Assembly: GCA_026397395.1 (NCBI GenBank)
Contig: JAPLUV010000013.1
Span: 1 to 56,342, forward strand
Reading direction: 5' to 3'
DNA: 56,342 bases
From: a candidate division SR1 bacterium
Lineage (GTDB): Bacteria > Patescibacteriota > Gracilibacteria > Absconditabacterales > Absconditicoccaceae
Positions within the stretch are counted from its first letter, which is position 1. Each line of letters opens with the position of its first letter. Both the position numbers and the translations under genes were made by a program. The notes under the pieces are model-generated. The model was not told the origin of the DNA and did not search any database. It worked only from the letters and a program-made list of their open reading frames with translations. Positions 3,879 to 56,342 of this stretch are shown here, piece by piece.

Positions 3879-4823
3879 TTATTTCTTTGTCTTAGATATT
3901 TTTTTTACAACCTCTCAACTCTCAACCTTCAACCTCTCAACTGAAATATTTTTTCCTCTCTGTAACAATCGCATCCATTTTTTTTCTCTTTGTAAGAAAT
4001 CCATATGTCCAGTATACATAATTTTCACTCAATAGCTTCAAGCCTTAAACTTTAAGCCTTCAGCCAACTGTTGAAAACAGTTTTCTATTTTTTCTAATTT
4101 ATGAAATCTAATCTTTTTGAAATTCAAAAATTTAGTAATAGTATTTTGATAATTAAAATAACCATAATTTAATGGTATCAAGGTATCTACCATTGCGTCT
4201 TTAAAATATTTAAGATCTTCTTTGACTACTCTATTGACCATCATACTCGAGAACGAAAACTTCGCAAGAAAATATTTTCGTAAAGGAACTTCTTTCGCCC
4301 ATCGAGAAAAAGGGAAATGGAATTTCCTAATCGATTTCTGGGTATCGGTGATTTTGTAAGTAGATCATAAATCGTGAAGCAACTTTTCTGCTACCTGCAG
4401 ATCAGCAAAATCACCTAGCAAACCAATCTTTCCCACCAATGAATAGGCAAAACATTCTTTCATTATATATTCTTGAAACAGAGGAAGAATTTTATTCTTG
4501 ATGTCATCCTGAGCATTAACGAAGGATATAAGTTTTTTATTATTTTTCTTAGACTCTTCATTTCACCTGCCTGCCGGTAGGCAAGGTTCAGAGTGACACA
4601 ATATCGCCAATTCGTAAAGAGGAGGCAAAATAATATAATCTACTCATTCTTTCGTTAAGCAATCAATTCACGACTGCACATTCAGTAAAGATTCTTCAAA
4701 TGTTTGGTCACCATAAAACTGATGCGATTGATCATAATACACAACATATTCATGATCATATTTCGTCAAGAATTTGAACAAAGTAAGCATATCATTACTG
4801 GAAGTAACTATTCCTATTTTCAT
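3879..4823 (-). CDS. Asp/Glu racemase-like protein (glutamate racemase family, tentative)
   Basis: The product is 314 residues when TGA is read as Gly (at least five TGA codons). The start MKIGIVTSSNDMLTLFKFL, then YVVYYDQSHQFYGDQTFEE, a GVDYIILPP strand, SLVGKIGLLGD and a late MYTGHMDFLQRE segment resemble the order of motifs in MurI-type racemases, but the canonical cysteines are not clearly in place, so substrate and activity are inferred only. A 20-bp palindromic repeat is read in frame (4566-4586, peptide CLPAGRG). Two word-like repeats are also in frame: TTCAAGCCTTAAACTTTAAG near 4034-4064, and CTCAACCTTCAAC words at 3909-3943, read as VERLKVESGEVV. The ATG overlaps the upstream gene by 10 bp. 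It ends in TAA. Confidence 0.6.
4566..4586. repeat. Palindromic repeat R1 inside a gene
   Basis: CCTGCCTGCCGGTAGGCAAGG belongs to the same palindrome family as 6539-6577, 23828-23847, 26901-26921, 32401-32420 and 44042-44079. Here it is read in frame within the racemase-like gene. The following TTCAGAGTGACA resembles one end of repeat family R2, suggesting R1 nested in an R2 remnant. Confidence 0.8.
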
Positions 4824-5395
4824 CAAATTTGTTGTTTAAAATAAATATATCCATTGAGCAAAGGAACTAATTCTTCAAATGTTTTAACCTGAGCAATCTT
4901 ATCTAATGTCTGAACTTGACCTGACATGAGAGAAGTAAGCCTCAGCACTTCTGCTGGTTGACCTGAACCAAGTGCAGCTAATTGAGCCAAGGACTTCGTC
5001 AATTGTAATTTATAAGGAGTAGTTTTTAGTGTAAAATAATCGACTGATTTTTTCAATAAGGTAAGTTCAAATGTTTTCATACTTTCAATAATATTGAGTC
5101 TCAAAGCTTGCAAGGTATCAATACTCAAAAGCTTTTCCTGTTTGACCTGAGTCCAATAGGTTACATCTTGTCACTTATTGATATATCATTGGAGCGTATA
5201 CAGTTCTCTCGCAGTCTGCCTCATCGTTTGCTCCATATAGAGTATGTATGATTGACACTTCGAACCATCTTTTGGACTGATAGAGACTTTAATAGCTTCT
5301 TGATTGATACGGCAAAAAAGTCTAGCTTCCATATATCAGAAGCTCACTGAGGGCAAACAGGCTAGCACCAAAACTATCAACACTATCTTTTTCAT
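4814..5395 (-). CDS. Small secreted protein, unknown function
   Basis: The product is 193 residues with a clear signal peptide: MKKIVLIVLVLACLPSVSFG, whose last Gly is TGA. The mature part is mostly helical and rich in Gln, Leu and Lys, with no recognised domain. Two Cys (in FCRIN and SKCQSY) could form a disulfide. Four or more TGA codons are read as Gly, including GG just before the TAG stop at 4816-4814. It overlaps the racemase-like gene by 10 bp, which suggests one transcript. Confidence 0.7.
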
Positions 5396-5444: not shown

Positions 5445-5525
5445 TGTCATTCCGAAGCAAAGCGAAGAATCCTACAAAAGATACAAGGAGATTTCTCACC
5501 CGAAGAGTTAGGTTCGAAATGACAA
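5445..5525. repeat. Inverted repeat R2 (GTCATTC...GAAATGACA)
   Basis: The left end TTGTCATTCCGAAGCAAAGC and right end GGTTCGAAATGACAA form a long imperfect inverted repeat between the secreted-protein gene and holA. Its family members lie at 32351-32449, 34239-34326 and 42016-42073. It has the size and layout of a REP/MITE-like element. Confidence 0.75.
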
Positions 5526-25481: not shown

Positions 25482-26054
25482 ATGAAAAACACAAGATTAA
25501 CCGATCTAATGATCATTGGTCAATTGATCCTTTTAGCAGGGATTGTAGTAGGGTTCTTAAATGAGACAAACAATATTTCAGTCAGTTTAGGGGCCACCCT
25601 TATCAACCACATCTATTGGGCGCTAATGGTTATTGCTTTAACACTAATAAGCATAACCAGCTACGATTTTGTCCAATATATAAGAGATGAACTTAACGAT
25701 AAAGTAAAGGGAACTGAAGGAACTCCAATAATTCATCTACTTTCTGTCATGGGAATACTCGGATGTTTATTCTTCATCGGGTTCGTTGTGCCATCAGCCG
25801 GATATATATGGGCAATATTTTGTGCCATCGGTTGTATCGCTACTATTATCTTCTACAAAGAAATCAAAGCTAGTCATGGTATGATTTGGGCAATTCTTAC
25901 AATGGTCTTAGTCCTAATGACCAGTAACAAGTGGACTTTTCTGGAAAATAATGCACCAAACAAGAAATTACAGATCTTGATTACTATGGTATCAATCTTC
26001 ATCATTAGCTTCATTGTAAAACAAGGGAGTATAAAATTCAAAAAGGAAAAGTAA
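25482..26054 (+). CDS. Hypothetical membrane protein
   Basis: The product is 190 residues with about six hydrophobic helices (for example LTDLMIIGQLILLAGIVVGF, IYWALMVIALTLISI, VMGILGCLFFIGFVV, ILITMVSIFIISFIV). No conserved motif was recognised. No TGA is used. A TTGACA promoter lies close upstream. Another small gene follows 54 bp downstream. Confidence 0.72.
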   Translation: MKNTRLTDLMIIGQLILLAGIVVGFLNETNNISVSLGATLINHIYWALMVIALTLISITSYDFVQYIRDELNDKVKGTEGTPIIHLLSVMGILGCLFFIGFVVPSAGYIWAIFCAIGCIATIIFYKEIKASHGMIWAILTMVLVLMTSNKWTFLENNAPNKKLQILITMVSIFIISFIVKQGSIKFKKEK

Positions 26055-26108
26055 GCAATTCGGTTTGAGCAAACACAAGAAGATCTACGACACAATGAAT
26101 AAGCTTTT

Positions 26109-26507
26109 ATGAACACAATACAACAAACCATAATGTTGATATTAGCAGCTCAACATTATGAAGTTTTCGAAGACGGATTCGAGAACAATGAAAGGCAATT
26201 CATCTACAAACTAGGACTATCGTATTATCTGGATAATCTTAGGGTACACAGACTCGTAAATAAACAATTTGCGCTGATATGGAAAACCAGATCAGAAACA
26301 AAATTGGATATATATGTGGGCTGTTCTATTTCACATGAGGGAATCGACTTCTCTGATTTAAAACTGTACAACGAAACAAGAAATTGTTTAGAAAGTACCT
26401 TAAATCATCTCCCTATGGGCCTAAAGTTCGAAGCATGGGAAGAAGCAGATGAGATTAAAGATCTCTTCTTGAGCTACTCCACTCATAATGTAAATTATTT
26501 TAAGTAA
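26109..26507 (+). CDS. Hypothetical soluble protein
   Basis: The product is 132 residues, mixed alpha/beta and acidic, starting MNTIQQTIMLILAAQHYEVF. No family, signal or membrane segment was recognised. No TGA is needed. It is followed by a strong terminator, so it may be the second gene of a two-gene unit with the preceding membrane protein. Confidence 0.65.
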   Translation: MNTIQQTIMLILAAQHYEVFEDGFENNERQFIYKLGLSYYLDNLRVHRLVNKQFALIWKTRSETKLDIYVGCSISHEGIDFSDLKLYNETRNCLESTLNHLPMGLKFEAWEEADEIKDLFLSYSTHNVNYFK

Positions 26508-26541
26508 GACAATCAACCAAGTCCATCAACTATGGCAGATG

Positions 26542-26575
26542 ATCTCTCGTTGCATAAGCGAGAGATTTTCTTTTA
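26542..26575 (+). terminator. Rho-independent terminator
   Basis: ATCTCTCG/CGAGAGAT (26542-26549 and 26559-26566) forms an 8-bp stem followed by TTTTCTTTTAT. Confidence 0.85.
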
Positions 26576-26632
26576 TCAAAAAAATTACCTTCACTCTCAA
26601 CCCTCAACAGGCGCAGCCTTCAACCCTCAACT

Positions 26633-27478
26633 TTATACTCAAGCCGATTCTAATTCCGCTCATCGCAATTCCGCCATTTTCTTCAATACTCCACCTACCT
26701 TGTATCTCGGATCTCGCTGATTTGCATAATACCACTTATGAGGATCGACTCGAATAATTTTTTTTTTTTTTTTTTAATCTTGAAATATCTCTGCATAGGT
26801 ACACAAAATAACTGACTGCATCCCCTTCTTGATTTCCCATCGGTGAACATCCTTTTGCTTCTCCGTCTGACTTGCTAATAACGTAACCAATCATCCTCCA
26901 CCTTGCCTACCGGCAGGCAGGTCGTCCATTTTCAATCCTCCATTTGTTAACGTTCGTAGATCTGGAAAAACTACTAATGTCTGTCACTGGGAAGAACAGA
27001 TAAAAGATCAAAGATTAAAGTTCAAAGATTTTCTCGGACTTTCATCTTTTGTCTTTCATCTTTTGTCTTTAATCTTCCCTTCACGTTCTAGAAGTTTTTG
27101 AAGTTCGTCAGTTACAAAATGTTTCACGACAGATTTATAGGTCGTATAATAGGTTTCCACCATTCGGTGTAATAAGGCCATCGTTTCCTTACTTAAGAAT
27201 CCCTTATAACATATTTCCATATTTCCATTTTTCAATTCTTCCATTTTTAGGTACAGTTCTTCAAATGATATTTTTTTTCCAAGACACAAAAAATATTCTG
27301 ATCATAATTGCAACAAATCTCAGCTCTTCATCTTTAGTGATTTTTTATAGACATTCTCTGGAATTTTCTGATCTTTCTCAGGAATTCTCTCGCCATTCTC
27401 CGGAATTCTCCCGTCATTCTCAGAAATTCTGAACACCCTATCAAATCACCCAAATCTTGTGAAGGAATACAAATACAT
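26633..27478 (-). pseudogene. PriA-like primosomal protein, broken
   Basis: The frame starts MYLYSFTRFGGFDRVFR and carries KSGDLLQLGSEYFL, QTLVVFPDLRTL, QTEKQKDVHRWEIKKG and ILCTYAEIFQD, which resemble the N-terminal and early helicase part of PriA-type primosomal proteins. A TAA (26776-26774) interrupts it right before an 18-A tract; the same frame resumes (IIRVDPHKWYYANQRDPRYK) and ends at 26633 after only 47 codons. The rest of the helicase is absent. Three word-repeat families and one R1 palindrome (26901-26921, read DLPAGRQG) are inside. It could be a pseudogene, a lineage-specific short protein or an assembly error at the A tract. Confidence 0.55.
26901..26921. repeat. Palindromic repeat R1 inside the priA-like gene
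   Basis: CCTTGCCTACCGGCAGGCAG is read in frame on the minus strand as LPAGRQ between DD and GGGG. Confidence 0.8.
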
Positions 27479-32350: not shown

Positions 32351-32449
32351 AATTGTCATTTCGAACAATTCAGTGAGAAATCCTAGAAAAAGACCCAGGA
32401 CTTGCCTACCGGCAGGCAGGGATTCATCTCTTTGCTCGGAATGACAGGT
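32351..32449. repeat. Composite repeat: R1 nested in R2
   Basis: TTGTCATTTCGAACAATTCAG opens and TTTGCTCGGAATGACAG closes an R2-type inverted repeat. The R1 palindrome CTTGCCTACCGGCAGGCAGG lies inside at 32401-32420. This shows R1 can insert into R2. Confidence 0.8.
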
Positions 32450-33605: not shown

Positions 33606-33645
33606 CATTCACTCTACACTCTAAACTATACACTATACATTCATT
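33606..33645. repeat. Degenerate word repeat (CACTCTAAACTATACACTATAC)
   Basis: ACTCTACACTCTAAACTATACACTATACATTC-type words (shortened here) lie at the 3' end of the flavoprotein gene and supply its last codons and its TAG stop. Complement relatives at 11050-11118. Confidence 0.65.
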
Positions 33646-34732
33646 TTGCACAGCAATACGCACTACTCCAGGCTCGTTGCAAATTAAATCAGCCACTCCT
33701 CCCAGTAATATCGAGGATTTCTCCAATGAAATATAAACCAGGAACAGTTTTGACCTGAAAATATTTATCTAATGCCTGCAAACTTACTCCTCCTCACGTT
33801 ACCTTTGCTTCTTCCCATGATCTTAGCTGCTTCAAACTAAATTGAAGTTTTGTATCTCTTTCTAATGAAGGAAAAAATCTGAATATCTTTTTGCTGGTAT
33901 GCTCGAGATCCAAGTCCAGTTGTATTGTCACATCTTTCTTGTGTTCTGCAAGAAAACTAGCTGCTCGCAAGCTCGCATCGAATACCACAGGACCAGAAAG
34001 TCACCAATGAGTAAATAGTAATGGTCACGAAGCCGAGTAAATTATCTTTTTACCTTCCATTGTCTCCATACCACACAAAGCCGCACGCGGAGCGACAAAG
34101 CGAACGCCAAATTGCTCAGCAAGCTCATATCCCAATCCCGTCGCTCCGACTTGTGGATAACTTTTTCCTCCAGCTGCGACAACAAGATTTTTAGCGAAAA
34201 ATATTTCTTTATCGGTAATGATTTTAAACCTATATTCTTGTCATCCTCAAATCATTTGTCATTCTGAATGCAATGAAGAATCTAATTTACCTCAATTATA
34301 TCCTTCGTTTCACTCAGGATGACACGATACTTTTATAATGTTTTGCCCAAGAAAAAATTCTACTCCATTTTCTGTTGCAAGATCCACCAAAAGATCACGC
34401 AATTGCTTTGCCTTGCCACTTTTGAGCAATACTCTACCACGATCTTCAACTATCGTCTCTATACCATGAGAAGCCAAAAAATTAATCATATCTTGATTAC
34501 CAAAAGCATGAAATATTCCAGGTAATGCCTTAATATTCTCACCTACATAATCTCTGGATGGATTGAGATCATTATTCGTCACATTACATCTCTCTCCTCA
34601 CGATAATAATAATTTTGTTCATAGCTTATCTGCTTTATCAATAATACATATCTTTTTATCTTTAGGCAAAAAGACAGAAGCAAAGAGCCCTGCCGATCAT
34701 CAACCTAAGATAATAATATCGTAATACTGCAT
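33626..34732 (-). CDS. HI0933/YhiN-type flavoprotein
   Basis: The product is 368 residues. It starts MQYYDIIILGGGSAGLF, an FAD-binding Rossmann motif in which Gly11 and Gly12 are consecutive TGA codons, and continues with LLSGGERCNVTN. It closes with VTGGGVSLQALD, VPGLYFIGEILDITG and GGFNLQRAWSSAY, all diagnostic for this family of predicted NAD(P)/FAD oxidoreductases. A palindromic R2 element is translated inside (34239-34326), adding about 28 residues rich in Gly, Ser and His between two strands. The final residues come from a word repeat. It ends in TAG. Confidence 0.88.
34239..34326. repeat. R2 inverted repeat inside the flavoprotein gene
   Basis: TTGTCATCCTCAAATCATTTG and GTCATTCTGAATGCAATGAAG at one side and CACTCAGGATGACACG at the other. 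On the minus strand it is an uninterrupted frame (CHPEGNEGYNGGKLDSSLHS...), kept open by six TGA=Gly codons. Confidence 0.85.
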
Positions 34733-34745
34733 TATACCCTGCAAA

Positions 34746-35153
34746 TTAAAGCGTACAGTGTTTCAAAAATGCCACTACATTAGGACGAATATTCATTTTT
34801 TCAGCTTCTTCTTTAGTAACAAATTTTATTTCCTGACATTCTTCAGAAGGAGTAAAATTAAAATCTTTAACTTTGGTTTCATAGAATGGATGACCCAATC
34901 GCACATCGTGTTCAGGATTATAGGAAACAACAAAATATAATGGCGCTGAAGCTACCCAAGTAACTTCAAGTCAGGCCTCTTCTTTGACTTCTCTGATAAT
35001 ACTTTCTGTAATATCTTCACCAAACTCTAGCCCGCCTCCAGGAAAATCTCGTGAACCATTATCTTCTCTCATCAAGAGAAATTTTGTTTTTGTCTCATCA
35101 AAAATAAGTGCTTTCGTACTGACTCTATAAAAACATGGCCACATCTTGTCCAT
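34746..35153 (-). CDS. Nudix hydrolase
   Basis: The product is 135 residues. The Nudix box GGGLEFGEDITESIIREVKEEAG (about residues 39-61) is complete (shown here split: GGGLEFGED, then REVKEEAG); the invariant Gly after EEA is TGA. It hydrolyses nucleoside diphosphates linked to another group; the substrate is unknown. It sits 13 bp upstream of the flavoprotein start on the same strand. Confidence 0.88.
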
Positions 35154-42015: not shown

Positions 42016-42073
42016 TGTCATTCTGAGTGAAACGAAGAATATAATTATATCCTTCACTCTGTTCAGGATGACA
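42016..42073. repeat. Inverted repeat R2, intergenic copy
   Basis: TGTCATTCTGAGTGAAACGA and TCACTCTGTTCAGGATGACA bracket a short centre (AGAATATAATTATATCCT). The promoter region of the FKBP lipoprotein gene lies next to it. Confidence 0.85.
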
Positions 42074-44686: not shown

Positions 44687-47600
44687 ATGCGAAAACGTGT
44701 TCATACACACATCACATCATGGATCCAGAACATCAATCTGGAACTGGTAAAATCACATATTTTATCATATTTTTCGTTTCATAAAATTTCACATCATATC
44801 ACGAGAGCACACCAACATATCAAGAAACACCACAAGAAGTACCTTCTGGGCTCACTTGGAGGATTTGCAATAATCAAGATGATGGTCATTTTTGTTGGAT
44901 CGGTAAGTGTATTACTCTATAGTAGAAGTTTTGCCACGTTTGATGCTACAAAAGTATGTGCCGATGTCACAGCAGTCTCTATTAGAGAATGCGAAGCATT
45001 ACTTAATCTCTATAACAATACTGATGGAGATAAGTGGTGAGATAGTTCAAATTGGTGAGATATTGCAAATATTTGCAAAAATCGACAGGGAGTAACCTGT
45101 ACTGATGGGAAAGTAACAAAGATAGACCTCTCATCCAACCTCCTCTCAGGAAAAGCCGACTTCTCATGATTACCTAGATTAACAGAAATAAATGTAGATG
45201 ATAATCTACTCACGAGTATCAATGTTTCCAAACTTACTAATCTTGGGTCACTTATTGTAAGCAACAATACACTCACGAGTATCAATGTTTCTGATCTAAT
45301 AAATTTAAACGCACTAAATATAGAAAACAATAAAATCACCACGATAGATATTGGGGGATTACATAAGCTAGATTGATTTTATGCAAGTAACAATCTTCTT
45401 AGCAAACTTCCAGAATCAACTCTTGAAGACGAAAACTTATGAAAAGGCAAAATAATAACATTAAATAACAACTGTCGAGATGCTTGATCTATGAGTTCTT
45501 ATCTTCTTACTTTCTTAGACGAAATAACTGACGGTGAACGAGAAATATCTATTAGCAACTCCTGTCCTGCCACCACACTCTGTCAATCAATCACCGATGT
45601 TCCAAAATCAGAATGTGAAGTACTAGCAAACCTCTACAAAAGTACGAACGGAGATGAATGGAAATCAACAGAAGCCCGATTTAAAAATACTACCGTTGGG
45701 AAACGATATGGTATCACCGTAGACGGTAAAGAAGAACAACATGTGACAGCAATTGATTTACATGGGAACTGACTTGTATGAACAGCAAGTTTTGTTGGAT
45801 TACCAAATGTAATAAGCCTCCTTCTATGAAAAAATCAAATTACGAGCATAGATGTTTCTGATTTAACAAACTTAGAAACACTTTCTATAGGATGAAATTT
45901 ACTCTCAACGATCGATGTTTCTACACTAACGAACTTAACAACACTAGAAGCTGGATCTAATAATCTTTCTACAGTTGATGTTTCTAAAAATACTAGTCTA
46001 GTAAATCTCGATCTCAGAGACAACAAAATTTCTTCATTTGATAGTAAACATCTAGACAATCTCAGTACCCTTTATCTCAATAGTAATCAGTTTTCTACTA
46101 TTGATATCAATCCATACACAAACTTAACAGAGCTTGATATTAGTGACAACCAAATCACTTCACTGAGTAATAATGACTTTAGCTCACTTACGAGTTTATC
46201 CTCACTCAATATTTCACCTTCATGCAATACCAATGGAACTGAATACATTACGTATCAATGATGAACGGCAAGCACAGATAGTGATAATTGTGTAGCTCCA
46301 TCCAGTACAGATGTTGCTGACTTTACAGGAGAACTAGAAACAAAATGATATACACGAGATGGGACATACAATGCATATGTAGGATGACGTCCAATTAGCT
46401 TCAATAATCCCAGCGCAAGCAATGAAATACTAGCACCACTTCTTATGACATCATCAGATGACATTCCTGCAGCAATTCTGTATCAAGACGGAACAACTAT
46501 CACACAAAATTGAGATGATTTTACAGACACCTTATATAATCCTACCCTATATCATACAGGAAATGTTCCAGGGATAGACAATGCTACTACACTTATGAAA
46601 TTTGGAAATCTTACCAAGAGAATAGATTTCAGTCAGGATGTTACCATCATTATGCCAGCACCTGGTAAGGCTATTGATGAAGAGGTTAATATTTATAGTT
46701 CTGATGCAGAGAATATTTTCACTACGCAAGATCCAGAATGGCATTTCGAAGCCACAATCAAAGTAAAAGACATAAATGGAGAACCATATGTTCAGTTTAC
46801 TACTAATCATGCAAGTCGATGGACAATTGGAGACCCAACATTTTGTAATTCCGTTACCGATGTCCCATGGGATGAATGTAATGCACTCATTAGTCTCTAC
46901 AACACAGCAGGAGGTACTGAATGGTTCGACACAGGATATCGATGAACTACGACTGTGGGTAATCGATACGGTATCACGGTTGATGGATGACATGTTACAG
47001 AAGTAAATCTATCTTCAAATAATCTCTCTGGTGTCATCCCAAAGGAAATAAATGGACTCATAGATCTAACATATCTAGATCTTCACGACAACAAGATTAC
47101 TGCAATAAGAGATGGAACGTTCAACACATTGAATAAAATTAACTACTTAGACCTTTCTACTAATCGATTGAGTAAACTTCCAGAATCTACTCTATGACTA
47201 GCAAATCTCACAACAGTAAATTTAGATAGCAACTGTCGATACGGTCCTGCAATGAGTGTTAATTTACTCGATTTCATCACAAACATTGCAGACAATGGTG
47301 ATTGGCTAAACTCAACAAGTCTCTCTTGTCCAGCAGCGGCATTCTGTCAATACATCGTAGACGTACCGCAAAGTGAATGTGAGGCACTAGTGAATACCTA
47401 CTATACAGCAAATGGAAATGGTCGGCTATATAAGACAAATCGATTAAAGTCCAACAAGGTGCACGATTGGTATGGTATCACCACCTATTTATGACATATT
47501 ATAGAAGTTGATTTACACAATAATCTCCTCTCTTGATCAACAAATTTTTCTAACCTAAGTAGATTAGATTATCTCGACCTAGCAAAAAATACCATTACAG

Positions 47601-50600
47601 CGATTACACTTTCTGGACTAACTAATTTAACATCACTGCTATTAAGTGATAATCATATCCAATCGATTGATTTGACAGATCTCACAAGTCTCGAGACTCT
47701 TGATCTAAGAACTAATTGGCTCAGCTCACTTCCAGAATCTACAACTCATCTCACACACTTAACAACAGCAAATCTAGAAGATAACTGCCGATATCTTCCC
47801 TATATGAGCAAAAATTTACGTGACTTTCTAAAATATGTAATAGGAAACAGCAATCGAGAAACAGCACTCAGCGAAAACTGTCCGGTACCAAGTTTTGACT
47901 GTAGTAAGCCATCAGTATCCTTCACCAAAGCAGATTATGTAGATTGGACACTTCCATGAAATCAAGACTGTATCACAGACAACGTCTGTATCACGAGAAA
48001 AAACAATCAAGGAATTTACAACTATGCTACAGAGAATGGATATATATCTTCTAGTCCAGACGATACCGAACGAGCATATGGCAATTGTATCAGCAAAGAT
48101 TCACTCACTTTTGACACCCGAACAAATACTCATGGGAACAATCCACCAGACACCATAGGACAAGATATGTGTCTCCACTTGATAAGTGATGATAAGTATT
48201 ATGATCTTATATTTACAGCTTGGACGCCAAGTAATGCATGAGGATGATTCTCCTATACGAGGACAGAATATATTCCTCCTCCACAAATAGATTTTACCAA
48301 AGCTGACTACGCAGACCGGACTCTCCCAGAAAATCAGGATTGTATCACCAACAACGTATGTCTCACCAGACAAGATACCAAAGAGTTATTCAATAGTATT
48401 TCAGAATCATCAGATAATGATTCAACAAGTCCTCTTGATACAGAATGGATAGTAGGAAATTGTACCAATAGAACGAAAGCAACTTTTGATACATGGCACA
48501 ATACCATTTCATCAATTTGATGAAATCCAGGAAGTCTAGTAGGAGAAGATATATGTCTTCATCTCATTACAGATAACACATATTATAACATTCATTTAAA
48601 TTCTTGGACAGCAGAGGGAAATGGCTGATGATTTTCTTATACAAGAACAGATTATCCTGGCACACAAATAGAAATTCCACAAAACGAATGTGAAGCACTA
48701 GTCGCTTTATATTCCAAGACCAATGGAAACTATTGGACCGATCACAGCAATCGATTACGCTCCAAAACTATTGCTGACTGGTATGGCATAACATTAGATG
48801 GATGACGTATCAGTGATTTGGTTACAAATAGCAACAATCTCGTGGGAGTCATTCCAAGTGAATTAAGTAAATTATCTAGGGTAAATTCCATAGATTTTGA
48901 TGACAATAAAATTACTTCCATAGAAACAGGTGCATTTAGTTGATTGGGAAACCTCAGTTATCTAGACATATGAAGTAATAGAATTTCTTCACTCAAAAAA
49001 AATGCATTCTACACATTACCAAACTTATCATATTTAGGCCTATATAATAATCAACTTAAATCTATAGACACAAGCACATTCTACGGGCTTGATAATATTA
49101 ACCAATTAGATATTAGCTCAAACCAAATCACATCCATACAGACTCAAGCGATGAAACCATTAACCTCTTTACATGAATTGGATGCAAATAACAATCAGAT
49201 TGCCTCACTCAGCAAAATAGATTTGAATGGATTAGATAATCTGGGTGTATTAGGCTTAGGAAGTAACCAAATCACAACAATTCCATGAGACTTTTTCAAC
49301 TGATTATGAAGTCTATCTACACTATATCTTGATTGGAATCCACTTATTTCATTTAATGGTGCTAACATTCCTTCTGGTGTAACCAATCTCAATATAAGTA
49401 ATGCATGTAATACCAATGGGACTCAGACCATAGAATTCAATCAAACAGCTACTAGTATTGATAGTAATCGTTGCGTACTTATTATAAGTGATATTGCTAG
49501 TGACTTTAGCGGAGCGCTCGTAAACAAAGGATACAGCAAAGATAATAATGGATACTATGTAGGGAATTATCCTATCAGTTTCAATGATGAGAACACAGAC
49601 ATTATCTTAGTTCCTACGATTATGGAATCATCCAATTCAAATGGATACTCACAAGACTACTACCAAAATAAAGTACAGGCACAATTTGATGCAGGCACAG
49701 AAATTACACAAAATGGAAATCCATTCACCTGAGTCTTACAGAGTCCCACCTTATTTGATACAGGAGATGTCTTTGGCATGAAAGAAGTTGATGCACTTAT
49801 GAGATTTGGAGATCTGAGTAGAAGAATAGATTTCAGCCAAGATGTTACAATTAGGATGCCAGTACTTGGTAAAAATATTGATGATGTGGTAAATATATAT
49901 AGCTCTGATGCAGAAGATATTAGTAGTAATTGAGCAACCCGAACTTTAGAGACGACAGCAACTGTATTTGACGGTGGAAATGGAATTCCTTATGTAGAAT
50001 TTACAGCTAGCCATGCAAGTCGATGGAGCGTAGGAGTAGCGAGTTTTTGTGCAACAGTAACTGATGTCCCATCATACGAATGTGAAGCGCTAGCCGCACT
50101 TTACAATAACACGGAAGGATCATGATGGATCAATACAGGTGGTCGATGAGTATCAACAACAGTAGGTAGCTGGGATGGAATTACCGTAGTAGGATGACAT
50201 ATACAGCAAATTAATCTATCATCATACAATCTCGTCGGAACTATTCCTGCCTGATTTAGTAACCTCACAGGACTACAAAATCTAAACCTTTACGGTAATC
50301 AGATAGTTTCTATAGAAACAGGCGCATTCAGTGGATTTTCAAGTTTGGAAATGATAGATGTCAGTAGTAATCTGATTAGCTCTCTTCCTGCTGGTATCTT
50401 TGACTCTCTTACAAATCTATTAACACTTTATATATATAGCAATCAATTAACCTGACTGCCTCCAGGCATTTTTGATTCCCTCACAAATTTGACAAATTTA
50501 GATATCGACAGTAATCAAATAACCTCACTTCCTGTAGGAATTTTTGATTCACTGTCTAGTTTGATCTATTTATATATCAACTACAATAAATTAGCTTCAC

Positions 50601-53600
50601 TTCCTGCAGGAATTTTTGACACTCTTACAAATTTATCAGAGCTATATTTGGATAATAATCAATTAACTTTGCTCCATGATGGCATCTTTAATTCACTATC
50701 TAACCTAAACTATTTATACGCAAACAATAATCAATTAGCGTCACTTCCTGCTGGCATCTTTAATTCACTGTCTAGCTTAAACTATTTGGATCTAAGTACT
50801 AATAAACTGACATTGCTTCCTACTGGGATCTTTGATACGCTCAGTAATTTATATGGGCTTTATTTATCTAACAATCCAATAACATCATTTTCTGCTGGAA
50901 TTTTTGATGGACTTACAAATGTAACAACGCTGTTTATCTATTCTGCTTGTAACACAGCAGGCACAGAGACTATCGGTTTTCCTTTGGGAAGTACAACTAC
51001 GGATAATAGTTATTGTGCTGCTCTACCAGATACTAATCCCACAGACTTCACAGGAGAATTAGAAGCAAAGGGATATACACGAGATGGAACTTATAGTTCT
51101 TATGTGGGGAATAGCCCAATTAGCTTTGACAATCCCAGTACTAGCAATCAATTTTTAGAGGCTGTTGCAATGGCATCTCTTGATACATATCCTGGAATAG
51201 TACGATACCAAAATGGCACACTAATAACACAAAACTGAAATCCATTCACAGGGGTATTGCATAGTCCCGTCTTGTTTGCTACAGGGAACGTACCTGGCAT
51301 GACAAATACCACTACATTGATGAGATTCGGAGATTTAAAAAATAAAATAGATTTTGATACGCTCATAACTGTTGTTATGCCAGCTCCTGGTAAAACGATG
51401 GGTGATGTGGTCTCGGTCTATAGCACTGATGCAGAAAGCATCTTTGACGGTGGACGACCAGCTTGGCAATTAGAGACTACTGGCATTGTATCAGACGTGT
51501 TAGGAATAGGAGAACCATACATTTCATTCAATACAAGACATGCAAGTCGATGGGCAATCTGAGATTCTTTTTGTAGTACGGTCACAGACGTCCCATCATA
51601 TGAATGTGATGCACTTGCAGCACTCTATGGAAGTACAAATTGACAATCATGGAATGATAATACAAACCGATGAATAGATACAACAGTTGGCAACTGGTAC
51701 GGAATCACTGTCGGATGATGACAAGTACAACAAATTACTTTATGATCAAATAATTTATCTGGTACTATACCTGCATGATTTAGTAACCTTGGATGATTAG
51801 AACTCTTGGATTTATCAACAAATTATCTTCCTGTTATTCAGACAGGGGCTTTTGATGGATTTACTAGCCTTCTACAATTATCGTTAGAAGATGATAAGAT
51901 TGGTTATCTTATCAGTGATGAGTTTGCTGGAGCACCAAATTTAGTATATTTAGCGATTGGTAGTAACGGGATATCAAATATTGATTATCCTATATTCTCC
52001 TGACTACCAAACTTAAACTTCCTCCTTATAGATAAGAACAAAATTTCACATATTGCTGGAGGAACTTTTGACTGAGCACCAAACTTAATTGGTATATCTA
52101 TTGGTTCGAATACAATTAAGTCAATCGATAGTGGAACCTTTGCCTGACTCTACAATCTAACAGGAGTAAATCTAAGTAGCAACAAAATTGCATCTATCAA
52201 CAGCTGAACCTTTGATGGGCGACCCCCTTTGGAATATCTAGACCTTTCCAGTAATTACATCTCATTACTCCCAAGCAACACCTTTGACGCTCTACCAAAT
52301 CTAGTAACACTTGATCTTAGGGGCAACCAGATACCATCACTCTACAATGGAATATTTTCTTCTCTATCTAATCTGACCACACTCGATGTATCTGCAAATC
52401 AAATTGCATCACTTCATAATGAAGATTTTTCATGATTACCAGCATTAGATATACTAAGGATTTGATCTAATCAGATATCTTCTATACAAAGTTGAACCTT
52501 TGATGGACTATCATCATTAACTGCGCTAGATGTTGCCAGTAACAACATGATAGATATTGCAAGTGGGACTTTTAATGGACCGACAAACTTAACAACACTA
52601 TATCTCGGCAATAATCAATTTTTAAATCTTAACAGTAGCATCTTCTGAGGGCTAGGTAGTCTTAGTTCCCTAGATATATCTTATTCTTGTAACACAAATG
52701 GAGCGGGGACAATATATTATGCTGGAGGATCGGCATCGATAGATAATGATTATTGTGTAGCAATACCCGATGTCATTCCTGCAAATTTTACAGGAGAATT
52801 AGTAAATAAGGGATACATCTATAATGGATCGGAGTATGAAGGAAGTTATCCTCTTAGTTTTAATAAAAGCCCACCTGCAGACAATGTATTTCATGCAAAT
52901 GTTGTAATGACATCTACCAATCCAAATAGCTACGGACAAAGTTATTACCAAAGCCTTGTATATATATTGTACAAAATAGGAACCAACATCAAACTCAATG
53001 GGAATCCATTTACAGGAGTCTTGTACGGGCCAACACTCTTTGCTACAGGCGACATTCCTGGATTGACGCATGTCGTAGCAGTCATGAGATTCTGAGACCT
53101 CAAACAAAAGATAACCTTCAATCAAGATGTTAAAATACAAGTTCCTGCAATAGGCAAAACTGTTTGAGATCTAGTCAACATTTATAGCTCTGATAATGAA
53201 AATATTTATAGTGATTCAGGAGTTAGTTGAACTTTCGAGACAGGGATAACCGTGACAAGTCTAGGTGGTCAACCTTACATTCAATTTTATACTAACCATG
53301 CAAGTCGATGGGTATTCGACGCACCAGGTGCATGTTCGATAGTGACAGATATCCCACCGATAGAATGTGCTGCATTAGTTGCACTTTACAACAATACAGA
53401 TGGACCACACCGAGGCGACAGCACCAATCGATTAAGTGGAACACTTGCAGAAAACTGGTATGGAATACAGGTGTACCCAGGATGAGGCACAGGAGTAGTT
53501 TCACGTATCGACTTACACAACAACAGACTATCTTGAGCCATTCCACCAGAGATAGGAGATCTAAGCTCATTAGGAGCACTTGATATATCTGAAAACAATA

Positions 53601-56342
53601 TAACTGATCTTCCCAAAGAAATTGGAAATCTTTGAAATCTAGTATGGCTACAAATAAATAATAACAAACTTACTTCCCTTCCTCGAGAGATCGGCTATTT
53701 ATGAAATTTACAAGGACTGTTCGCCGGAGGAAATCAGATCTCAAGTATTTCAGGAACATCAATGGCATGATTAACAAGTTTACTTTATCTAGATTTTGGA
53801 TGAACACTAAGCAATATAGCTTTTTGACGCAATATTAATAAATGAGGAAACAATCTTACTTCTGTTCCATGAGCATACCTTCCATCCTTAGAACGACTCG
53901 ATCTTTCAGATAACAATATATCTTCCTTATCTCCATTTGGGAACACTACAAATCTCCAATATGTACTTCTAAACGACAACAATCTTACCAGTCTTCCTAG
54001 TTGGATAGGCAATGGTTCTAGTATAATTGCGCTTACCTTATGATGAAATCAACTTACTTGACTTCCTGCAGATATAAGTGGATTGGTACACTTACAATTG
54101 CTTGACCTATGATCAGATTTAGTGAATAAGTATCTTCTGGATACTTATGGGGTAACGGCACATCTATCTACTGGATGAAATCAGATAACAACACTTCCTG
54201 CAGAATTATGGGGATTAACAGGATTATCATCCCTTGGACTTTCTCAGAACAAAATAACTACCATTCCTACAAATATTACTAATCTCTCAAATCTAAGTAG
54301 TCTTTATATAAACAACAACCGACTATTCTGACTTCCTGAGGAATTCACCTGAATGACATCTCTCACAGATACCTGATGAATGAGAGCAGAACTTAACTGT
54401 TGGGATACCTGATCTATGAGTTCTTTGTTGTTAAACTTCGTTAATCTTAAGGTAGGCGATACTGCTTGGCAGAGCCCATTAAATCCAACCTGTCCTATAC
54501 CTCCTGTAGTAATATTTACCGGTGCCAATCCTGCAGACAATATTTGGATAAGAACAAATTCCTTTACAGGACAACTAGATATTACTGAGGCTTACCCCAA
54601 CCAATTTGAACGAAGACGAAGTGGAGTAAATTATTCTCTCTACGATTCATGATTAGTCTTCATGGCCAATTTTGATAATGTAAGTTCATTATGAGAAAGC
54701 AATGGAGTTGCTACAGACCTATCTAGCTATGGAGCAAATATCGTTGGATATGGATGAGTCAACTGGACAGGCAATGGAAGACGAAATGGAGCTTATGCAT
54801 TCAATGGGACCAATGGATATTTTGAAATAGCAGATAACTCAGGAATAAATATCGCAGGAAGTAATATTACCATGTCCGTATGGATCAAAATCAATAAATG
54901 TCCTACAGCAGCGAATCTAATCTTCGAAAAAGAAGCACAATATACACTTAATTTATACAATGGCTGTACGATTAGTTATGCTGACAGTAGCAATCGATCA
55001 TACGTAAACTTTGGATACAAAGACATAGGAATTACTACAGGAGCATGGAACTATATCGTCGTCACCAAAGATTCATCTAATTTTGTTTCCCTTTATCGCA
55101 ATGGAATATATCAGACAGGAAAAACATTTGGTTGAGCTATTTCACAAACAAGCAACAATCTCCTTATTGGAAATTATCTATTTTCTACGGCCTACTTCTC
55201 CTGACTCATAGATGAACCACGTATCTATAATCGCACACTCTCATCTGGAGAGATAGCACGACAATATAATGCTAATCTAAATAAATATGATACCAACAAA
55301 TGGAATTTTATAACCTTCCAGACAGGACTAACAGATGGTATATTTAGATATACATGATTTGTCAGTAATATTAATTTGATCAGTACAACAACAGGCAGAA
55401 ACATTGGACGTGATACAGCGAATCCATTAACGACATTCCTTCTTTCTCCAACCAGTGGCCAAGTGCTCAGTACATGAAATATAACGCTCCTTCGAAGTGG
55501 TGCAGTCGATACGGGATCAGGAATCAGTGGATATATTTATCAAGTAAGTACAGGTACATCATTTACAACGTTTGTAATTTCTTGAACCAAAACAACCACA
55601 GGGGTCGGCTTACTTGGTTTTACAGATGGAACCTACTATCGACGCGCATATGCTTTTGATCTCGCAGGAAATACTTGAGCACGAAGCACATGATGGAATT
55701 TTATTATCAATATTACAACAATCCCAGTAATTACTTTCACCTGATCTACACCAGCAGACAATGCATGGATCACTACTAATTCATTTACTGCACAATTAAA
55801 TATCGCAACAACAAATCTCTCTCAATTTATACGATCACGAAGCGGGACAAATTACAGCATATATGACAGTGGAGTTTGATTATTAATGAACTTTGATAAA
55901 ATCACAGCACGCTGAGAATCAGATAGCAATATCAAAGATTGGACAATAAACGGGAACACATGAGCTATATCAGGAGCAGTAACATGGACAGGAAATGGAA
56001 AATTTTGATGAGCCTATATCCTAAGTGGTGGCTATATTACTGTACCTAGTTCAGGATCTATTGATCCTACTACATGACGAACATTATCTGCCTGGATCAA
56101 AAGAAATGTTGTTGGTCAACAACAAGGTATTATGGAAAAATTTGACCGAACAGCTGGCAGAGGAAGTTATGCATTAAGAATAGAAAATGATAAACTTATC
56201 GCATATGTCCTAAATGGAACAAGTTATGACGTGTGTGGAACCACAACTACATTACTAGCTCAATATGTGCGATATTATGTTACGGCTACTTTTGATAGTA
56301 CTACCCACATCCTAAAGTGTTACGTAAATGGCGTTGGAGAAG
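44687..56342 (+). CDS. Giant LRR and LamG surface protein (partial)
   Basis: One frame of at least 3885 codons, with no TAA or TAG and over 100 TGA=Gly codons, runs off the window. A His/Lys-rich cytosolic start and a membrane segment (SLGGFAIIKMMVIFVGSVSVLL, ~60-82, given here in part) lead outside. Eight modules start with a cap like VTDVPxxECxALxxLYNxTxG, ending WYGITV (near 44957, 45583, 46840, 47340, 48660, 50045, 51570, 53330), followed by leucine-rich repeats (LTNLTTLDLSxNxIxSL). Four copies of a beta domain (TGELETKGYTRDGTY ... YVQFTTNHASRW) follow LRR blocks. Two copies of a Cys-containing domain (DFTKADY...DCIT..VC) lie at 47.9-48.7 kb. From 54.5 kb two LamG-like domains occur (ITMSVWIKINKC; TLSAWIKRNVV). 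A host-adhesion role is inferred. Confidence 0.9.

Follow-up and report, generated by a model that had tools for sequence, protein, structure and literature searches.

An in-frame CGTC-type REP doublet in a flavoprotein gene of a code-25 bacterium, with evidence for frame bias and linkage to a GIY-YIG nuclease gene

The HI0933-like gene and its R2 insertion

The stretch analysed here, referred to as the window, is 56,342 nucleotides long and constitutes one contig (C33) of a 39-contig, 1.25-Mb candidate division SR1 genome (G000), whose genes contain many in-frame TGA codons and thus fit genetic code 25. On its minus strand, at 33626-34744, the ORF list places a gene for an HI0933-like/TIGR00275 FAD-binding enzyme, supported by matches to PF03486 (E 7e-62) and to TIGR00275 (E 6e-81, above cut-off). 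This gene is the host of a palindromic repeat, R2, that occupies 86 nt of the same strand (34239-34324) and comprises two arms (34300-34324 and 34257-34281) and a third, partial arm (34239-34249). Read under code 25, the element yields SCHPEGNEGYNGGKLDSSLHSEGQMIGGGQ and contains five in-frame TGA codons; the corresponding peptide in the protein is CHPEgNEGYNgGKLDSSLHSEgQMIgGgQ, where g denotes TGA. Elsewhere in the genome the element has fifteen matches (E 1e-16 to 3e-4). An earlier reading of the window, made from sequence only, had proposed that R2 lies in frame in an HI0933 flavoprotein and adds about 28 residues. The code-25 translation, the genome matches and the family matches bear out the in-frame position, and alignment with 29 homologues puts the net addition at about 26 residues rather than exactly 28.

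Homologues of the HI0933 protein are present in seven of the eight same-genus genomes and in many genomes of the same family, and the R2 insert is missing from all 29 that were aligned, which is the outcome that the sequence-only reading had asked an alignment to show. The corresponding site in same-genus homologues reads, for example, HSIKKSDEHIF, and two homologues (G004 and G010) carry different short inserts in the same loop. On a solved HI0933 homologue (PDB 2gqf), the break maps near residue 133. As judged from these alignments, both the insertion and its clean absence in relatives are established. No DNA-level empty site was obtained from a closely related genome, so the insertion ends and any target duplication remain undefined, and a search for named HI0933 homologues among genome contigs returned a single distant Bacteroidales match only.

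Further copies of R2 are found within the window. One, at 42016-42073, is a 58-nt head-to-head pair of REP hairpins between a PKD-domain gene and an FKBP gene, and when used as a query it identifies approximately 15 R2 sites in the genome. Another, a diverged R2-like copy at 5445-5524, adjoins the holA gene (DNA polymerase III delta). Both had been described as lying between genes, the latter at 5445-5525, and both are indeed intergenic. A third copy, on the minus strand at 4502-4598, is read in frame (CHSE-PCLPAGRG-NEES...NAQDD) within an ORF without a family match (3879-4826), and bears a second palindrome, R1, nested in one arm. Elsewhere in the window, positions 45500-54400 hold a number of large repeat blocks, a 72-nt tandem unit among them, that resemble genes for leucine-rich-repeat surface proteins.

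When R2 sites in the rest of the genome were scanned under code 25, reading only the stretches around the repeats, further family-supported in-frame hosts were found: a PriA fragment (contig C19), HemW (C9) and a CsaB-type pyruvyl transferase (C21). HemW has two separate R2 inserts, both in variable loops of an alignment with 29 relatives; the HemW proteins of four same-genus genomes (G001, G003, G005 and G008) have neither insert and possess short loops at the corresponding places, and HemW of G028 also carries a REP insert at the first of the two sites. A search with the HI0933 protein also matched the R2 segment of PriA, although the two proteins are unrelated. In-frame R2 insertion with absence from orthologues, a trait of Rickettsia palindromic elements, is seen for HI0933, HemW and PriA. 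The PriA ORF (L002; 397 aa) spans the C-terminal half only, so that G000 may have a split or incomplete PriA. As separate observations, the leuS gene (L003; contig C2, about 2360-2920) contains an in-frame GxxExxY/PDDEXK_3 domain at ORF residues 318-430, which separates the catalytic part from the editing part and has short tandem ATTCTCAGAA repeats after it, and in another code-25 genome (G037) contig C11 carries tandem arrays of R2 arms, repeating every 96-97 nt or so, at 25684-26637 and 34061-34776.

Architecture of R2 and the nested palindrome R1

Each R2 arm is a 25-nt unit (TGTC + ATYCT GA NN GNA NN GA AGRAT), and two arms are arranged head to head. Covariation was assessed in 98 distinct arms from code-25 genomes and 86 from standard-code genomes with shuffled columns as the control, and is found at pairs 7-23, 12-18 and 13-17, all well above the shuffled level and at about twice that level except for 13-17 in the standard-code set. 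A tandem G.A step is nearly invariant and a GNA triloop occurs in 82-84% of the arms, in both code sets. The stem can be drawn as nine positions with the tandem G.A step and a triloop or, equally, as eight with a loop of five, and the single-strand hairpin is strong (z -3.2, DNA parameters). The tag preceding it is TGTC in 152 and CGTC in 18 of 189 code-25 arms, and TGTC in 139 and CGTC in 19 of 167 standard-code arms, counts that must be read with the fact that TGTC formed part of the search pattern, in which at most three mismatches were allowed.

These features are those of the CGTC REP superfamily, whose members possess a CGTC or TGTC tag, a stem of 8-9 positions starting with A-T, a loop of 4-5 and a three-nucleotide tail that is mostly CCA, and occur predominantly as head-to-head dimers, mostly in intergenic DNA (PMC3733652). 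The superfamily includes Rickettsia RPE-4 and RPE-6 and Neisseria dRS3, and its intragenic dimers encode 20-30 residues, often in replication or repair genes (PMC3733652). R2 fits in that the dimer scan and place lists often show its arms as head-to-head dimers and that it lacks association with a RAYT. It does not fit in its tail, which is AT or ATAT in G000 and CCC or CTG in other genomes; the CCA tail is not strictly defining, since the published description says "most" (PMC3733652). On these sequence features R2 is classed as a head-to-head pair of CGTC-type REP hairpins, in the superfamily that includes RPE-4 and RPE-6, and the earlier comparison with Rickettsia palindromic elements was right in kind. 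Translated insertion into genes has likewise been reviewed for RPEs, which are about 150 nt long (PMC10969869).

The second palindrome, R1, is 20-21 nt long, and its pattern has 66 forward and 64 reverse matches in the genome against none in the control. It had been reported in frame in a racemase-like gene and in a priA-like gene. The open frames hold, and the gene identities are unverified: neither the ORF at 3879-4826 nor that at 26774-27478 has a Pfam, NCBIfam or PDB family match, a racemase-like BLAST match is weak (E 0.003 for a single comparison), and the verified PriA fragment, with an R2 of its own, is on another contig. The R1 copy at 4566-4586 (minus strand) is where it was said to be and, being 21 nt long, is frame-neutral, with the correction that it is nested inside the R2 copy at 4502-4598. 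The other, at 26902-26921 (minus strand), is read in frame as LPAGRQ. At 32401-32446, R1 is joined to an R2-type arm (32422-32446), and R1 likewise interrupts or joins R2 arms at C9:71905 and C36:41541, as well as in the standard-code genome G437 (L249, L252, L257 and L258). Deleting exactly 20 nt at C9:71905 and C36:41541 restores the R2 arm, indicating clean R1 insertion without obvious duplication. With host genes unverified and one copy nested in R2, what had been claimed for R1 is weaker than what had been claimed for R2.

Reading frame and genetic code

In-gene copies were compared among code-25 genomes, four of them from one family (G000, G028, G037 and G044) and one from another (G165), and standard-code genomes of the same phylum. 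An element was listed as in-gene if it spanned an ORF of at least 130 residues, and its host was kept on a Pfam family match (NCBIfam for PriA); hosts were thus called by Pfam and not by expression. They include Tex, IF2, SecA, ClpB, UvrC, UvrD, MutL, DnaE, TilS, RsmF, MurD and MnmA. In four code-25 and nine standard-code genomes, 36 of 140 copies (26%) are in genes in the former and 15 of 125 (12%) in standard-code CPR (Fisher p 0.005; genome-level p 0.015). By code-25 genome the shares are 4/13 (G000), 12/43 (G028), 8/43 (G037) and 12/41 (G165). This is a first survey in which some genomes were only sampled and some are incomplete, and for G505, G292, G310 and G305 arms were taken among the matches listed only.

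The frame in which these copies are read is strongly biased. Among code-25 in-gene elements with Pfam-supported hosts (five genomes), frame R2 of the 3' arm, which gives ...SSLRSE-TGA-Q, is used in 32 of 37, the remainder being three in frame R0 and two in R1. In standard-code CPR, all 14 in-gene 3' arms use R0. Extragenic code-25 copies have the three frames open about equally, with the TGA frame making up 29% of open frames, so that stops at other positions do not account for the bias and frame openness is ruled out as its cause; the in-gene excess over this background (p 5e-13) is evident from the counts themselves. The sequence-only reading had argued that TGA as glycine, by removing one of three stop codons, would ease insertion into genes, and had called for the comparison of in-gene shares with standard-code CPR; both the higher share and the excess in the TGA frame support this. 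The hydropathy of the whole peptide was considered as a cause of the bias and rejected, for F2-R2 is surpassed in hydrophilicity by the F0-R0 combination. Taken by itself, the 3' arm reaches its highest hydrophilicity in the TGA frame (SSLRSE-G-Q; a simple count over the three frames). Selection on the peptide as the cause of the bias remains an inference.

If the enzyme that inserts R2 preferred certain target sites and so happened to fix the codon phase, a skew of this strength could stem from that and not from tolerance under code 25, and the failure of hydropathy alone to rank the TGA frame first leaves room for such a preference. A fixed DNA target does not predict, however, that standard-code CPR bearing the same repeat should be equally skewed to a different frame. 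Nor does it account for the standard-code genome G340, where most extragenic dimers are 72 nt long and the in-gene ones are 73, 74, 74 and 80 nt, the lengths expected if length were selected to avoid the TGA frame. We consider a target-site origin of the bias improbable. Even less credit, amounting to very little, is given to the notion that the insert is never translated, being cut out of the mRNA or skipped by the ribosome: the strong single-strand hairpin would suit such an event, but in tens of genes no stop interrupts the frame across the insert, a condition that would be needless if the insert were skipped, and R. conorii proteins decorated with RPE-1 are expressed in vivo (PMC3733652).

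Two features of the hosts were observed in passing. Three mnmA genes, two code-25 (L233 in G037, L348 in G044) and one standard-code (L298 in G428), have REP insertions that fall in one and the same loop region, and each is read in the frame that its code permits. Hosts in G037, G165, G340, G428, G447 and G517 are rich in UvrA, UvrC, UvrD, MutL, DnaE, DnaX and LigA and in tRNA enzymes, an enrichment for DNA repair, replication and tRNA enzymes that matches earlier reports for CGTC and GTAG REPs.

REP-bracketed GIY-YIG genes and the mobility of R2

CGTC REPs have been described as lacking a dedicated transposase (PMC3733652). Pairs of a forward and a reverse R2 arm lying 200-1000 nt apart define eight cassettes, seven of which enclose an ORF of about 91 residues encoding a GIY-YIG protein (PF01541, E 1e-15 to 1e-18). 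Such cassettes occur in code-25 and standard-code CPR alike, and one is on contig C16 of G000. The motif residues Y7, Y18, G20, R28 and E65 are invariant in an alignment of six of the CPR proteins; two weaker GIY-YIG matches in CPR have no arm nearby.

Because the CPR loci had been chosen around arms, an unbiased locus test was made, in which a consensus of the CPR proteins was searched against plasmids and a profile against viral contigs, and 24 loci were taken by protein similarity alone. The plasmid matches come from Rhizobium, Sinorhizobium, Shinella, Neisseria, Azospirillum, Sphingobium, Novosphingobium, Planktothrix and others, a list that partly coincides with the taxa given for CGTC REPs (PMC3733652). 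An inverted repeat pair (score at least 20) surrounds the gene at 16 of the 24 loci and in none of 400 random windows. By a separate hairpin criterion, CGTC-type hairpins are present on both sides of the gene at 16 of the 24 loci, as against none of 1000 random windows, and on at least one side at 21 of the 24, as against 70 of 1000. The loci include some near relatives, and the random windows were drawn from four alphaproteobacterial plasmids only. The linkage of REP, GIY-YIG gene and REP is a direct observation at these loci, and it recurs in independent lineages. A GIY-YIG search of annotated phages found none; a literature search found no paper that links GIY-YIG proteins with REPs, and the text of a GIY-YIG survey does not mention palindromes (PMC1564403). 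The nuclease may be the missing mobility enzyme of CGTC REPs, its action on REP DNA and their movement being inferred from linkage.

An obvious candidate for moving R2 is a Y1 (RAYT/IS200-type) transposase, as for GTAG REPs, and G000 does contain three Y1_Tnp matches. Against this, Y1_Tnp is missing from most R2-rich genomes (G028, G037, G044, G165, G340, G428 and G447), there are no R1 or R2 arms near the five Y1_Tnp loci examined (three in G000, one each in G437 and G008), and RAYTs are not flanked by CGTC units (PMC3733652). The arrangement that marks a REPIN-RAYT system, a Y1/HUH transposase gene flanked by REPs, is thus not met, and we rejected the Y1 enzymes as mobilisers of R2, a role we regard as very unlikely. 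Harder to dismiss, if still doubtful, is that the GIY-YIG gene is a passenger in REP doublets, such as a homing-type nuclease that lands on REPs without moving them. In favour of a passenger, homing endonucleases of the GIY-YIG type cleave target alleles without recognising the mobile DNA to which they themselves belong (PMC1564403); against it, the linkage is found in several phyla and with different families of REP, a pattern suggestive of co-evolution between enzyme and hairpin.

We therefore prefer, with reasonable though incomplete confidence, an overall explanation in which R2 is a REPIN-like CGTC doublet that is tolerated in loops, retained in the TGA frame and probably a non-autonomous form of a REP/GIY-YIG/REP element. 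R2 would be a mobile doublet, each hairpin of which bears an unpaired TGTC tag, a covarying stem, the tandem G.A step and the GNA triloop. Copies landing in coding regions would survive if the frame is kept and the site is a surface or variable loop. With TGA as glycine, a frame would become open in which the 3' arm encodes a hydrophilic SSLRSE-Gly-Gln linker, and it is this frame that most retained in-gene copies use. The complete element, REP/GIY-YIG nuclease/REP, is present in G000 and would be widespread in bacteria. Nuclease-driven mobility and actual production of the inserted peptide are inferred, in the absence of transposition, cleavage or proteomic data. In a broader form, to which the evidence inclines us only slightly, CGTC REPs across bacteria, R2 included, would be non-autonomous units of a new class of REP-GIY-YIG-REP element driven by the 91-residue nuclease and not by a tyrosine transposase, with the reassignment of TGA in code 25 opening one more frame and so widening genes as landing ground.

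A genetic code that decides which frame of a mobile repeat is usable would constitute a natural experiment on the tolerance of proteins to insertions, and predicts that stop-codon reassignment alters how much small mobile DNA a genome carries and where it lies. If true, the GIY-YIG linkage supplies the dedicated enzyme described as missing for CGTC REPs, among them Rickettsia RPE-4/6 and Neisseria dRS3, and the long-open question of their spread becomes directly testable in common laboratory alphaproteobacteria. Translated REPs are themselves of a known kind; the dependence on the genetic code and the candidate mobility enzyme look new.

Comparison with known systems places R2 closest to the CGTC REP superfamily (PMC3733652), with which it shares the TGTC/CGTC tag, the short stem starting with A-T, mostly intergenic head-to-head dimers, some copies in frame in known genes as 20-30 residues, and the lack of RAYT association. 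It differs in occurring in CPR, including code-25 lineages, in a gene frame containing TGA, a stop in previously described hosts, in a tail other than CCA after the stem, and in the GIY-YIG gene proposed to be associated with it. Like R2, RPE-1 and other Rickettsia palindromic elements are palindromic, mobile-like DNA in frame in unrelated genes whose proteins tolerate them, but they are longer (PMC10969869) and use the standard code, and the shared superfamily is only as reported in PMC3733652. REPIN-RAYT systems, with GTAG REPs and a Y1 tyrosine transposase, offer the parallel of non-autonomous REP doublets and of an enzyme gene with those REPs on both sides, whereas the enzyme proposed for R2 belongs to the GIY-YIG nucleases and not to the HUH/Y1 transposases, and the tag is CGTC/TGTC, not GTAG. 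Finally, the REP-bracketed nuclease has the catalytic domain (PF01541) and conserved motif residues of GIY-YIG homing endonucleases but, unlike these, is a 91-residue protein without an intron or intein and with no room for a NUMOD domain.
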